Positions 5,441 to 10,472 of a stretch of DNA of 10,600 nucleotides are shown piece by piece. The stretch is taken from NCBI GenBank assembly GCA_027028665.1, contig JALVIU010000235.1, forward strand, positions 1 through 10,600, read 5' to 3'. The translations under genes were made by a program, and so were the position numbers. Position 1 is the stretch's first letter. Each line of letters begins with the position of its first letter. The notes under the pieces were generated by a model that saw only the letters and a program-made list of their open reading frames with translations, ran no database searches and was not told where the DNA came from. Source of the stretch: Candidatus Atribacteria bacterium. Lineage in GTDB: Bacteria > Atribacterota > JALVIU01.

Positions 5441-7558
5441 ATGAATGAAGTTACACAGGAAAAAACGGTAATCAATGGAAAAGAATATATTATTGAAACA
5501 GGGAAAGTAGCGAAACAGGCGAATGGAGCAGTACTTGTAAGATATGGGGACACAGTAGTACTTGTAACTGCTGTAGCAGCAGAAGAACCTAAAGAGGATA
5601 TTGACTTTTTTCCATTGACGGTAGAATTTGAAGAGAAGTTTTATGCAGCAGGTAAGATACCAGGAGGTTTTATAAAAAGAGAAGGTAAACCTGGGGAAAA
5701 GGCTATCTTAAGTGCTCGTCTTATAGATAGGCCTATAAGACCTCTTTTCCCAGAAGGATATAGAAATGAGGTACAGATAATAGCCACTGTGCTTTCTGTA
5801 GATCAGGAAAATCCCCCTGATATTTTAGGTATTACAGGAGCCTCAGCTGCTCTTACAATATCTGACATTCCCTTTGAAGGGCCAATTGCAGGTGTAAGGA
5901 TAGGATATAGAGATGGAAAATATCTTGTTAATCCTACATCTGAAGAGTTAGATGATTCGTTGCTGGATATTGTAGTTGCGGGAAGTAAAGATGCTATAAC
6001 TATGGTAGAAGCCGGTGCTAAAGAAGTATCAGAAGAGGTTATTGTAGGGGCATTGGAATTGGCACAGAGAGAGATTGTAAAATTAGTAGAACTTCAGGAA
6101 AGGCTAAGAGAAAAGATTGGGAAAGAAAAGGCAAGTTTTGAACCACCTGATCTTTCTTCTGTGACAAAGAAGATAGAGGAAGAAGCTTTAGAAGATATAC
6201 GTATATCTCTTATTACAAAAGAAAAGAAAGAGAGAGAAAAAAAACTTTCTCTTATAAAGAAGACCCTAAAGGAGAAGCATGAGGAGGATGAGGAGTTTTT
6301 AAAATATCTAAATGATGCTTTTGAAAAGATAATAAAATCAGAAGTGAGAAGACTTATCTCAACTGAAAAGAAGAGAGTTGATGGTAGAGGATTGGAAGAT
6401 ATAAGGCCCATATCTTGTGAGGTGGGAGTTCTGCCGAGAACTCATGGTTCTGCTCTCTTTACAAGAGGACAAACACAGGCTTTAGTGATAACTACACTTG
6501 GTGCTACAGAGGATGAACAGATAGTAGATGATATTACAGAGGAGGAAAATAAAAAATTCATGCTCCATTATAATTTTCCTCCATTCTCTGTAGGAGAGAT
6601 AAGACCTCGTAGAGGACCCGGGAGAAGAGAGATAGGGCACGGGGCCTTGGCAGAGCGTGCCATAAAGGCAGTACTTCCTCCAGAAGAAGAATTTCCCTAT
6701 ACTATAAGAGTCGTATCGGAGATCCTTGAATCAAATGGCTCTTCTTCTATGGCTACAGTCTGCGGTGCTACAATGTCTCTTATGGATGCGGGAGTAGGTA
6801 TTACAAAACCTGTTTCAGGTATCGCCATGGGTCTTATTAAAGAAGCAGGGGAATTTTTTATTCTTACTGATATCTTAGGATTTGAAGATCATTATGGAGA
6901 TATGGATTTCAAAGTGGCAGGCACAAGAGATGGAATTACTGCTCTTCAAATGGACATAAAGATAAGTGGTATATCTTCTGATATAATGAGAAAGGCATTG
7001 AATCAAGCGAAAAAAGCAAGACTATTTATACTCGATAAGATGGCAGAGACCATTGATAAGCCTCGGGAGAGTCTTTCCCCTTATGCTCCTCGTATAGAAG
7101 TTCTTACAATAAGTGCTAATAAAATTGGAGATCTTATAGGTCCTGGAGGGAAGAATATTAAGCGTATTATCGAGGAAACAGGAGTAAAGATAAACATAGA
7201 ACCCGATGGAAAGGTTTATGTATTTTCTACTAATGAAGGAGCTTTTGATAAAGCAAGGGAGATGATTGAAACTCTTACAAGAGAAGCTAAAGTAGGAGAA
7301 AATTATCTTGGCAAGGTAACTCGTATAACTAATTTTGGTGCTTTTGTAGAAATCTTCCCAGGAAAAGAAGGTCTTGTTCATATATCCAATCTCTCAACAC
7401 GGAGAGTGAAAAATGTAAAAGATGTAGTAAATGTAGGAGATAAGATCCTTGTAAAAGTTATAAATATAGACGATACAGGGAGAGTAAACTTATCCAGAAA
7501 AGCGGTCATTCAAGAAGAGGAAGAAAAGGAGAAAGCAGGGAGGAAAGAAAATAGCTAA
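5441..7558 (+). CDS. pnp: Polynucleotide phosphorylase (polyribonucleotide nucleotidyltransferase)
   Basis: PNPase degrades RNA 3'-to-5' by phosphorolysis as a trimer and can add tails in reverse. The 705 residues match the family length (~700-720). Domain order: first RNase PH core (~15-140, with KFYAAGKIPGGF and RLIDRPIRPLFP), all-alpha linker (~145-310, highly charged), second RNase PH core (from RVDGRG at 312-317 to ~530), KH domain (GPGGK at 567-571), S1 domain (~618-690, GKVTRITNFGAFVEI and GLVHISNLS). Catalytic residues are present in EDHYGDMDFK: Asp483, Asp489 and Lys491 correspond by eye to E. coli Asp486, Asp492 and Lys494. A 15-residue charged tail follows S1. The tail codons also hold the ribosome-binding site of uppP, whose start overlaps this gene's end. 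No anomalies in the catalytic core. Confidence 0.99.
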   Translation: MNEVTQEKTVINGKEYIIETGKVAKQANGAVLVRYGDTVVLVTAVAAEEPKEDIDFFPLTVEFEEKFYAAGKIPGGFIKREGKPGEKAILSARLIDRPIRPLFPEGYRNEVQIIATVLSVDQENPPDILGITGASAALTISDIPFEGPIAGVRIGYRDGKYLVNPTSEELDDSLLDIVVAGSKDAITMVEAGAKEVSEEVIVGALELAQREIVKLVELQERLREKIGKEKASFEPPDLSSVTKKIEEEALEDIRISLITKEKKEREKKLSLIKKTLKEKHEEDEEFLKYLNDAFEKIIKSEVRRLISTEKKRVDGRGLEDIRPISCEVGVLPRTHGSALFTRGQTQALVITTLGATEDEQIVDDITEEENKKFMLHYNFPPFSVGEIRPRRGPGRREIGHGALAERAIKAVLPPEEEFPYTIRVVSEILESNGSSSMATVCGATMSLMDAGVGITKPVSGIAMGLIKEAGEFFILTDILGFEDHYGDMDFKVAGTRDGITALQMDIKISGISSDIMRKALNQAKKARLFILDKMAETIDKPRESLSPYAPRIEVLTISANKIGDLIGPGGKNIKRIIEETGVKINIEPDGKVYVFSTNEGAFDKAREMIETLTREAKVGENYLGKVTRITNFGAFVEIFPGKEGLVHISNLSTRRVKNVKDVVNVGDKILVKVINIDDTGRVNLSRKAVIQEEEEKEKAGRKENS
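7537..7543 (+). promoter_or_regulatory. Shine-Dalgarno pointing at the ATA start of uppP
   Basis: AGGGAGG in the last codons of pnp lies seven bases before ATA 7551, an ideal spacing. No ATG, GTG or TTG occurs at a usable distance in the uppP frame, so this site is the main positional evidence for the unusual start. Confidence 0.6.
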
Positions 7559-8321
7559 ATTAATTTATCTGGCTATACTACAGGGACTTACAGAATTCCT
7601 CCCTGTTAGTAGTTCAGGCCATCTTTTAATCTTAAAAGACCTCTTGCATACTAGTGAACAAGGGCTCTCAATAGAGGTTTACCTCCATTTGGGAACCCTT
7701 TTATCAATTATCATATACTATTTTGAAGATATTTTAGAGTTATTAATCTATTGGAGGAAGAACCTAAAATATATTATGCTTATAATTTTAGGTTCTATTC
7801 CAACTGCCATTATAGGATTTACTATATATAAACTTACAGATAATTATAATTTTGGAATAAAGGCAGTAGGAGGATTCTTTTTAATTACCTCCATATTTCT
7901 ATTTCTTGTGGATAGATTTCAGTTTAATATGAGAAAACAGGGAAATCTATTAAAGAGATCGGAAGGAATTGGGGTATTAGATGCGCTTTTTATCGGGAGT
8001 GCACAGGGGGTAGCCGTATTTCCAGGTATATCGAGGTCAGGATTTACTGTAGGGAGCGCTATACTTAGAAAGATCGATCCAAAGGATGCAGCAAAGTTTT
8101 CTTTCTTGCTTTCTATTCCTGCTATAGGAGGGGCGTTTTTATTGGAGTTTATACATAAAAACATGACTTTTGAGGGGAAGTTCTTAGTTCCTATGTTTAT
8201 TTCTTTCATAGTGGGATATGCTGCTATTCATATATTTATAAAAATACTCACCTCAAAAAGGCTTATTTATTTTACCCTTTATTTACTTATAATAAGTATA
8301 ATCTCTCTTCTTTTCTTATAA
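7551..8321 (+). CDS. uppP: Undecaprenyl-diphosphatase UppP (BacA family), probable ATA start
   Basis: UppP is a membrane phosphatase that recycles undecaprenyl diphosphate to the monophosphate carrier for peptidoglycan and other surface polymers; overproduction gives bacitracin resistance. Read from ATA 7551 it has 256 residues, normal for the family (~255-275). The N-terminus carries the active-site (E/Q)xxxE motif, QGLTE at 11-15, then FLPVSSSGH with His24. The second motif PGISRSGFT lies at 158-166, followed by KDAAKFSFLLSIPA. The rest is strongly hydrophobic with several membrane spans. In frame, the first conventional start is TTG 7644, which would delete QGLTE and SSSGH. The frame is open upstream to a stop at 7485 with no ATG, GTG or TTG before 7551. 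ATA 7551 follows AGGGAGG by seven bases and overlaps the pnp stop by eight. ATT 7563 and CTG 7569 are less likely. A sequencing error (ATG read as ATA) is possible. Confidence 0.93.
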   Translation: MAKLIYLAILQGLTEFLPVSSSGHLLILKDLLHTSEQGLSIEVYLHLGTLLSIIIYYFEDILELLIYWRKNLKYIMLIILGSIPTAIIGFTIYKLTDNYNFGIKAVGGFFLITSIFLFLVDRFQFNMRKQGNLLKRSEGIGVLDALFIGSAQGVAVFPGISRSGFTVGSAILRKIDPKDAAKFSFLLSIPAIGGAFLLEFIHKNMTFEGKFLVPMFISFIVGYAAIHIFIKILTSKRLIYFTLYLLIISIISLLFL

Positions 8322-8324
8322 AAA

Positions 8325-10472
8325 ATGCCTAAAAAAAAGATTGCTAAAGGAAAGAGCACAAAAGAAAAAAACTCAAAAATTCAAGAGTTATTTGGCCTTA
8401 TTACTGTATTAATAGGAGTTTTTCTCATATTTTTGGTATATGGAGATGCATCTCCAAAGTTAGTGGGAAAAGTAGGTCAAATCCTTAAGAGAATACTTAT
8501 AACATATACAGGTATAAATAGGTATTTTCTCACCTTAGCAATATTCTTTTTCGGAATAAAGCTATTAATTGGAAAAATCAATAAAGAAATTATTATAAGA
8601 TATATATTATTCATCTTTCTTATATTCTTTATTGTTACCTCTTTTCACTTTCCTTTCTTAAAAACAGAATTTGCATATAAGATCTCTGCACGAGGAGAAG
8701 GAGGGGGACTTCTAAGTTATTACTTTTCCTATATCTTAAATTACTATTTTGGAGAATTTGGAAGTTATATAGTCTTGTTTTTACTCTCCTTTGTCACTCT
8801 TACGATTATGATAGATTTTTCATTTGGAGAACTTTTAACCAAAGGGATAAATATAATATTTTCTATATTCAGATCTCCAAAAGAAGAATGGGCATCATAT
8901 ATGGAATCTGAAACGGAAAAGGACCTGATTAACAAAAGAGACAAAGAACTTTCTATACTAGGAAAAGAAGAAAAGGATGATCTGCATATAGAAAAACATA
9001 ATTTTATAAACTTAATAGAGGAAGATGTTGTTGAAGAAAAGGCCATAAAGCCTAAAAATGAAGAGCTTCCTCCTATATCTCTTCTTCATAAGAAAGAACA
9101 CAAAACGAATAAGAAATTTGAAGAAGAGATAGAATATAATAAGAAGGTACTTGAAGACAAATTTCACAGTTTTGGCATAGATATAAAAATCGTAAATGTA
9201 GTAAAGGGGCCTACAATTACCCGTTATGAAATAAAACCTCCTCACGGTATAAAGGTAAATAAGATTTTGAGTTTAGGTAATGACATAGCTTTGGCTTTAG
9301 GAACTCCTCAGATAAGGATAGAAGCGCCTGTACCCGGAAAAAAAGTAATAGGAATAGAGGTGCCCAATAAAGAAAGAGAAGTAGTCTACATAAGAGAGCT
9401 GATAGAGTCAGAAGAGTTTCAAAACTCTAAAAATATACTTCCCCTTGCACTTGGAAAAGGAATGGGTGGTAAACCTATTATTGCAGATCTTGTAACTTTA
9501 CCTCACCTTCTCATTGCAGGTGCTACATCTTCAGGTAAGAGTGTATGTATAAATAGTATTATAATGAGTTTCTTATTTAAATTTACACCAAAAGAAGTAA
9601 GGTTTCTTATGATAGATCCAAAAATGGTAGAGCTTAGTGTGTACGAAAGAATACCTCATCTCCTTGGACCCATTGTTACTGATCCAAAAAAGGCTGCCTT
9701 AGCTCTTGAGTGGGTAATTAAGGAGATGGAGAGAAGATTTAGGATATTTGCAGATTTAGGCACGAGGAACCTGGAAAGTTATAATAAATTTGTAGAAGAT
9801 CTACCTGGCTATACAAAAATGCCATTTATTGTAGTAATAATAGATGAACTTGCAGACCTTATGATGGTAGCGCCGAAGGATGTAGAAGGTTCTTTATGTC
9901 GCCTGGCTCAGATGGCAAGGGCTACAGGAATTCATCTCATAGTAGCTACTCAACGACCATCTGTGGATGTAATAACAGGTCTTATAAAGGCAAATTTTCC
10001 TTCCCGCATAGCCTTTACAGTCTCATCACAGGTAGATTCAAGGACTATAATTGATACAAATGGAGCAGAAAAGTTATTGGGAAAAGGAGATATGTTATAC
10101 TTACCCATGAGTATGTTAAAACCTATAAGGGTTCAAGGCGCCTATGTAAGTGATGAAGATGTAAAAGAGGTGGTAGAATTTTTAAGAAATCAAGAAATAA
10201 AAGAATATATGGATATTATACATTTTAGCGAAGAGGAATTGGAAAAGGAGGAATTAAATCAAGAGGAGGGAGAAGAGGACGATCTCTTGAAGGCTGCCTT
10301 AAATGTTATATATACTTATAATAGGGCTTCTGCATCTTTGCTTCAAAGAGAGCTTAAGATTGGTTATCCTCGAGCAGCAAGACTTATAGGTATACTGGAA
10401 AAGAAGGGATATATAGGTCCTCAAGAGGGGAGTAAACCTCGAAAAATTTTGAAAAAAGAGGAGAGTATCTAA
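8325..10472 (+). CDS. ftsK: FtsK/SpoIIIE family DNA translocase
   Basis: FtsK is a septum-anchored ATPase that pumps DNA to complete chromosome segregation at division. The 715 residues begin with a Lys-rich cytoplasmic tail (MPKKKIAKGK), then about four membrane helices (~22-39, 66-83, 89-106, 146-163). A short, mostly charged linker (~185-265) follows, then the motor: alpha subdomain (~265-365, KGPTITRYEIKPPHGIKV) and the RecA-like beta subdomain with Walker A GATSSGKS at 399-406 and Walker B IIDEL around Asp507-Glu508. QMARATGIHLIVATQRPS follows. The C-terminal gamma winged-helix domain (~650-712) has ASLLQRELKIGYPRAARL and GPQEGSKPR, the part that reads orientation sequences (KOPS/SRS). 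The linker is much shorter than in E. coli FtsK and length is close to SpoIIIE/SftA types. ATG 8325 is three bases after the uppP stop with no visible Shine-Dalgarno, so reinitiation is likely. Confidence 0.98.
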   Translation: MPKKKIAKGKSTKEKNSKIQELFGLITVLIGVFLIFLVYGDASPKLVGKVGQILKRILITYTGINRYFLTLAIFFFGIKLLIGKINKEIIIRYILFIFLIFFIVTSFHFPFLKTEFAYKISARGEGGGLLSYYFSYILNYYFGEFGSYIVLFLLSFVTLTIMIDFSFGELLTKGINIIFSIFRSPKEEWASYMESETEKDLINKRDKELSILGKEEKDDLHIEKHNFINLIEEDVVEEKAIKPKNEELPPISLLHKKEHKTNKKFEEEIEYNKKVLEDKFHSFGIDIKIVNVVKGPTITRYEIKPPHGIKVNKILSLGNDIALALGTPQIRIEAPVPGKKVIGIEVPNKEREVVYIRELIESEEFQNSKNILPLALGKGMGGKPIIADLVTLPHLLIAGATSSGKSVCINSIIMSFLFKFTPKEVRFLMIDPKMVELSVYERIPHLLGPIVTDPKKAALALEWVIKEMERRFRIFADLGTRNLESYNKFVEDLPGYTKMPFIVVIIDELADLMMVAPKDVEGSLCRLAQMARATGIHLIVATQRPSVDVITGLIKANFPSRIAFTVSSQVDSRTIIDTNGAEKLLGKGDMLYLPMSMLKPIRVQGAYVSDEDVKEVVEFLRNQEIKEYMDIIHFSEEELEKEELNQEEGEEDDLLKAALNVIYTYNRASASLLQRELKIGYPRAARLIGILEKKGYIGPQEGSKPRKILKKEESI

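Follow-up and report, generated by a model that had tools for sequence, protein, structure and literature searches.

The question raised by this locus is where translation of uppP, a gene of cell-wall lipid recycling, begins. The uppP frame is uninterrupted between 7488 and its stop codon at 8321 (+ strand), and the only ATG, GTG or TTG that it holds 5' of the protein body is the TTG at 7644–7646. This codon has no Shine-Dalgarno (SD) sequence and lies downstream of the conserved N-terminal UppP motif QGLTEFLPVSSSGH (7581–7622, + strand), confirming the original prediction that no canonical start precedes the N-terminal motifs. Gene callers that start at this TTG would, as had also been anticipated, truncate the protein, since the resulting product would lack the N-terminal catalytic motif. 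When the sequence was read by eye, no ATG, GTG or TTG was found in any frame from about 7510 to 7643. A simple indel, that is, a lost or gained base hiding the start, was therefore rejected.

The window analyzed is the entire contig C235 (10,600 bases), which belongs to an assembly of 1.79 Mb in 413 contigs that is approximately 90% complete. It carries, in order, what we take from reading the translations to be the end of nusA, ylxR, infB, ylxP, rbfA, truB, ribF and rpsO, followed by pnp (5441–7558, + strand, 705 aa), uppP and an ftsK/spoIIIE-like gene (8325–10472, + strand). The pnp-uppP-ftsK order is shared within the phylum, and a search for a phage origin of the locus returned no match. 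The start listed for infB in this window is GTG 834, while ATG 843 would give the more usual N-terminus.

To what extent does the frame upstream of TTG 7644 belong to the protein? The Pfam BacA profile (PF02673) matched the uppP product with 217.8 bits over model positions 2–257 of 257, and from model position 2 the match already reaches upstream of the TTG. With several NCBIfam UppP models, the first residue matched is precisely the one encoded by an in-frame ATA at 7551 (residue 22 of the frame translation P0001). The scores fell below the NCBIfam equivalog cut-offs (178.7 for TIGR00753, against a curated cut-off of 217.5), as expected for a divergent lineage. The E. coli UppP structure 5oon aligned over 27–271, QGLTEFLPVSSSGH included, and both the QGxTEFLPVSSxGH and PGxSRSG motifs were found in the product in alignment with 5oon, the second as PGISRSG in the frame translation (8022–8042, + strand). 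By these alignments, the product is predicted to be a normal undecaprenyl-diphosphate phosphatase, the conserved N-terminal residues of which are encoded with no canonical start upstream.

The ATA (7551–7553, + strand) follows the SD sequence AGGGAGG (7537–7543, + strand; GGAGG at 7539–7543), which lies within the 3' end of pnp, with a gap of 7 nt (7544–7550). From this codon, the uppP (bacA) coding sequence would extend over 7551–8321 (+ strand) and specify 256 residues plus stop, reading I/M-AKLIYLAILQGLTEFLPVSSSGH and giving a predicted N-terminal peptide (f)M-AKLIYLAILQGLTEF. The distance to AGGGAGG, the length of the protein and the normal spacing to the conserved motif all agree with what had been proposed, and ATA 7551 was the best start found. 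A gap of 7 nt is also the commonest among SD-supported starts in this genome, where spacings of 5–9 nt are used. This estimate came from a 61-codon expectation-maximisation, whose start-codon identities (which drifted to TGC and AGC, a modelling flaw) were not used, and from an assumed anti-SD sequence, the assembly containing no 16S rRNA. Because the genome is AT-rich, with ATH and CTG accounting for about 10% of the codons in frame and ATA being the commonest isoleucine codon (55 per mille in the sampled contigs), and because the SD is modest (GGAGG, 5 nt), the pairing of ATA with an SD is in itself weak evidence. The case becomes convincing once N-terminal homology and a normal protein length are added to this pairing. 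Judged from the sequence, then, uppP is probably a normal UppP gene with AUA 7551 as its start codon, which would be selected by the GGAGG inside the end of pnp.

Two other readings of the frame were weighed against the same data. Initiation at a different near-cognate codon, ATT 7563 or CTG 7569, would shorten the protein by 4 or 6 residues; both codons belong to the uppP frame and precede the QGLTE motif, and some UppP proteins do start only 6–8 residues before it. However, their spacings from GGAGG (19 or 25 nt) fall far outside the 5–9 nt of the genome and no other SD lies between, which makes such a start very improbable. We consider it likewise very improbable that a +1 frameshift close to the 3' end of pnp yields a pnp-uppP fusion protein, or that uppP is a decaying, untranslated gene. 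A fusion is formally possible, as the frame is open upstream to 7488, but the part upstream of the ATA residue has no homology in UppP models and no slippery site was recognised. Decay might be tolerated if the one PAP2-family protein encoded in the genome replaced UppP; yet the reading frame is intact with both motifs present, and a well-placed SD precedes the ATA, which speaks against fusion and decay alike.

To place AUA 7551 in the context of the family, we compared it with approximately 105 other uppP loci. In essentially all of them an ATG, GTG or TTG lies 5–12 codons before the QG motif, and the absence of such a codon here is thus not a family habit. The exceptions were L016, which is cut by the contig end, and L108. 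The uppP gene of L108 (position 2988, MAG SZUA-191; TTGAGGTGAATTCTG) has no usable canonical start, its only TTG sitting four codons before the QG motif, and it probably starts at CTG. Relatives' pnp-uppP junctions, a check put forward with the original prediction, were compared among same-phylum loci, the genus, family, order and class being represented by this genome alone. In the three loci that share the pnp-uppP-ftsK order (L005, L024 and L026), uppP starts with ATG, which in L005 follows a GGGAGG SD very similar to that of C235. The AUA is therefore probably derived: in terms of the sequences compared, the gene arrangement is likely to be old, and the AUA would have taken the place of an ancestral AUG later, in this lineage. 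Conservation of the start in relatives is expected of a regulatory start, although it does not strictly define one. Since the syntenic relatives have ATG, the AUA is no conserved regulatory device of the pnp-uppP junction.

We then asked whether uppP is alone in this respect. Eighty unmasked contigs (517 kb, 29% of the genome) with 458 predicted genes whose 5' end lies inside the contig were screened for missing canonical starts, automatically and in part by eye. In at least seven of the 458, uppP included, homology extends upstream of any usable ATG, GTG or TTG. In ruvC (L210:1786, contig C211), position 1 of NF000711 falls on an ATA that forms a 4-nt ATAG overlap with the upstream gene, and the nearest canonical codon, a TTG three codons downstream, lacks an SD. 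The birA gene (L113, contig C1, minus strand, + coordinate about 1848) appears, by N-terminal homology, to begin at the ATA of an ATAG overlap with hisIE, which itself would begin with ATT or ATA (minus strand, + coordinate about 2486) and overlaps its own upstream gene; two consecutive genes on L113 are thus without a canonical start. For motB (L149:3000, contig C242), position 1 of NF005831 falls on a CTG 9 nt after GGAGG and two nt past the stop codon of the upstream gene, probably motA. The mrpE (MnhE) gene (L138:1893, contig C231) has N-terminal homology from an ACG 8 nt after AAAGGAGG; no ATG, GTG or TTG occurs in its first 93 codons, and the first ATG comes 93 codons past the ACG. The seventh gene is infC (L173), with an ATT start, a known habit of that gene.

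Three further genes were noted on SD placement only, each with a near-cognate codon 8–9 nt after a strong SD: a major-facilitator gene (L121, contig C9; ATA, 11-nt SD), a Wzy-like gene (L244, contig C69; ATT) and a lytic-transglycosylase gene (L237, contig C62; ATT). In the first two, GTG is found only inside the SD itself. Candidates on L133 and L153 were dropped because an ATG lies two codons upstream, as was one on L197 (ATA 9920), for which ATG 9944 is a good start. The automated screen alone yielded 5–6 convincing genes among the 458, compared to none in about 500 genes of other genomes, a control that was built around uppP neighborhoods and that missed the L108 uppP through its distance threshold. 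Simply counting the SD sites that have a near-cognate codon gave no enrichment, since the majority of these SDs serve genes that have a good canonical start. On the minus strand of L134 (contig C227), the prfB frame opens at RCIFDPGRIRKR without a start codon, as expected from the known programmed frameshift of RF2.

These companion genes bear on the possibility that ATG (or GTG) is the true codon at 7551 in the cell, the ATA of the assembled consensus being due to a G-to-A error or to a variant from a minority strain. A single transition separates ATG from ATA, the source is a fragmented metagenome assembly and the syntenic relatives have ATG. Moreover, ATG-to-ATA start changes have arisen spontaneously in E. 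coli O104:H4 rpoS (PMC12864459) and in Listeria rsbW (PMC13068326). Against this, the 517 kb examined contain at least six more genes that have no canonical start. The substitution error that this would imply (with the rate taken from the six non-infC broken starts) predicts approximately 125 nonsense codons in the screened genes, and no excess was seen; in addition, 53 same-frame neighboring gene pairs resemble ordinary gene boundaries. General sequence error was rejected on these two grounds. An isolated base error at 7551, which the original prediction regarded as the main alternative, is weakened by the companion genes, and we now consider it rather unlikely.

An AUA start of uppP is a further example of a rare phenomenon that is already known, and the moderately novel part is the apparent frequency of such starts. 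In Listeria, 6 of 2265 conserved genes (0.26%) have fixed non-canonical starts (PMC13068326), compared to 7 of 458 (at least 1.5%) here (Fisher p 0.0025); the two counts come from different methods, the one here partly by eye, and the ratio is indicative. It is suggestive, not decisive, of a lineage that uses near-cognate starts several times more than model bacteria do. We tentatively entertain, at somewhat less than even chances, a class with generally relaxed start selection, in which AUA, AUU, CUG and ACG would work in about 1.5–2% of genes, core genes included (uppP, ruvC, birA, hisIE), and often at overlapping gene junctions. The cause would perhaps be an altered initiator tRNA, IF3 or 16S rRNA. 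No initiator tRNA was found in the incomplete assembly, where an E. coli tRNA query had no match, and three matches to an anticodon-stem pattern were all discarded as lying at non-tRNA places. If selection is relaxed in this way, dozens of this class's proteins would be given a wrong start by callers that accept canonical codons only. With ATG, GTG and TTG only, uppP would be recorded as truncated and inactive, and the companion proteins would be shortened too. Our data suggest that some uncultured lineages may use near-cognate starts several times as often as model bacteria do, which would have consequences for gene prediction, for protein families derived from metagenomes and for views of how strictly IF3 and initiator tRNA police start codons.

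Known systems indicate what such a start could deliver. In S. aureus, the AUA starts of infC, ccpN and citZ support about 10–30% of AUG expression (PMC13009471), and a value of at most 1% has been given for E. coli (Hecht et al. 2017, cited in PMC12864459). The AUA/AUU starts of S. aureus infC, ccpN, citZ and cvfC1 resemble that of uppP in being SD-directed initiation at a third-position near-cognate of a normal coding gene; however, they were mapped by ribosome profiling and have extended SDs, whereas uppP is known here from sequence and has a short SD, and the ccpN and cvfC1 starts are conserved, unlike the uppP AUA (PMC13009471). Listeria monocytogenes rsbW mutants with an ATA start are still translated, more weakly than from ATG, and like uppP, rsbW overlaps its upstream gene (PMC13068326). 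Another near-cognate AUH start is the AUU of E. coli-type infC, with IF3 autoregulation, and infC of this genome also has ATT. Unlike that of uppP, the infC start is conserved, and its feedback logic is established; we know of no such logic for uppP.

Pairing of the initiator tRNA with AUA would leave the third position mismatched, so that initiation there should be inefficient and sensitive to IF3. We infer that the AUA is used in the cell, that it is coupled to pnp and that it lowers uppP yield in an IF3-dependent manner. A low output may be enough for UppP, a low-abundance membrane enzyme, and deliberate regulation of uppP through its weak start may be envisaged. The uppP AUA would be one of a group of near-cognate starts (AUA, AUU, CUG, ACG) in the genome. 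The ATT of infC indicates that IF3 feedback probably exists in this organism, and the near-cognate genes as a group could then respond to the IF3 level.

Finally, we considered the part played by pnp. The pnp stop codon (TAA, 7556–7558) and the uppP start overlap by 8 nt (ATAGCTAA, 7551–7558, + strand). As in known termination-reinitiation pairs, stop and start overlap with the SD inside the upstream gene; those pairs have ATGA or TGATG overlaps (PMC6728339), whereas the start in ATAGCTAA is not AUG and its coupling is putative. Ribosomes terminating on pnp would probably assist initiation at uppP, because with an 8-nt overlap reinitiation needs only a small backward step. The coupling to pnp proposed at the outset is compatible with the positions of the overlap and the SD. 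The start region has little mRNA structure (z −0.19). A special hairpin over the start was rejected on this score, and coupling may not be strictly needed. ATA at stop overlaps (ATAA or ATAG) was not obviously enriched genome-wide, so that coupling permits such starts rather than explains them. Overlap or near contact with the upstream stop recurs among the genes concerned (uppP +8, ruvC +4, birA +4, hisIE +7 and motB −2 nt): five of the seven near-cognate genes overlap or abut it, compared to 55 of 247 SD-supported canonical genes (Fisher p about 0.009), an excess that fits help from terminating ribosomes.
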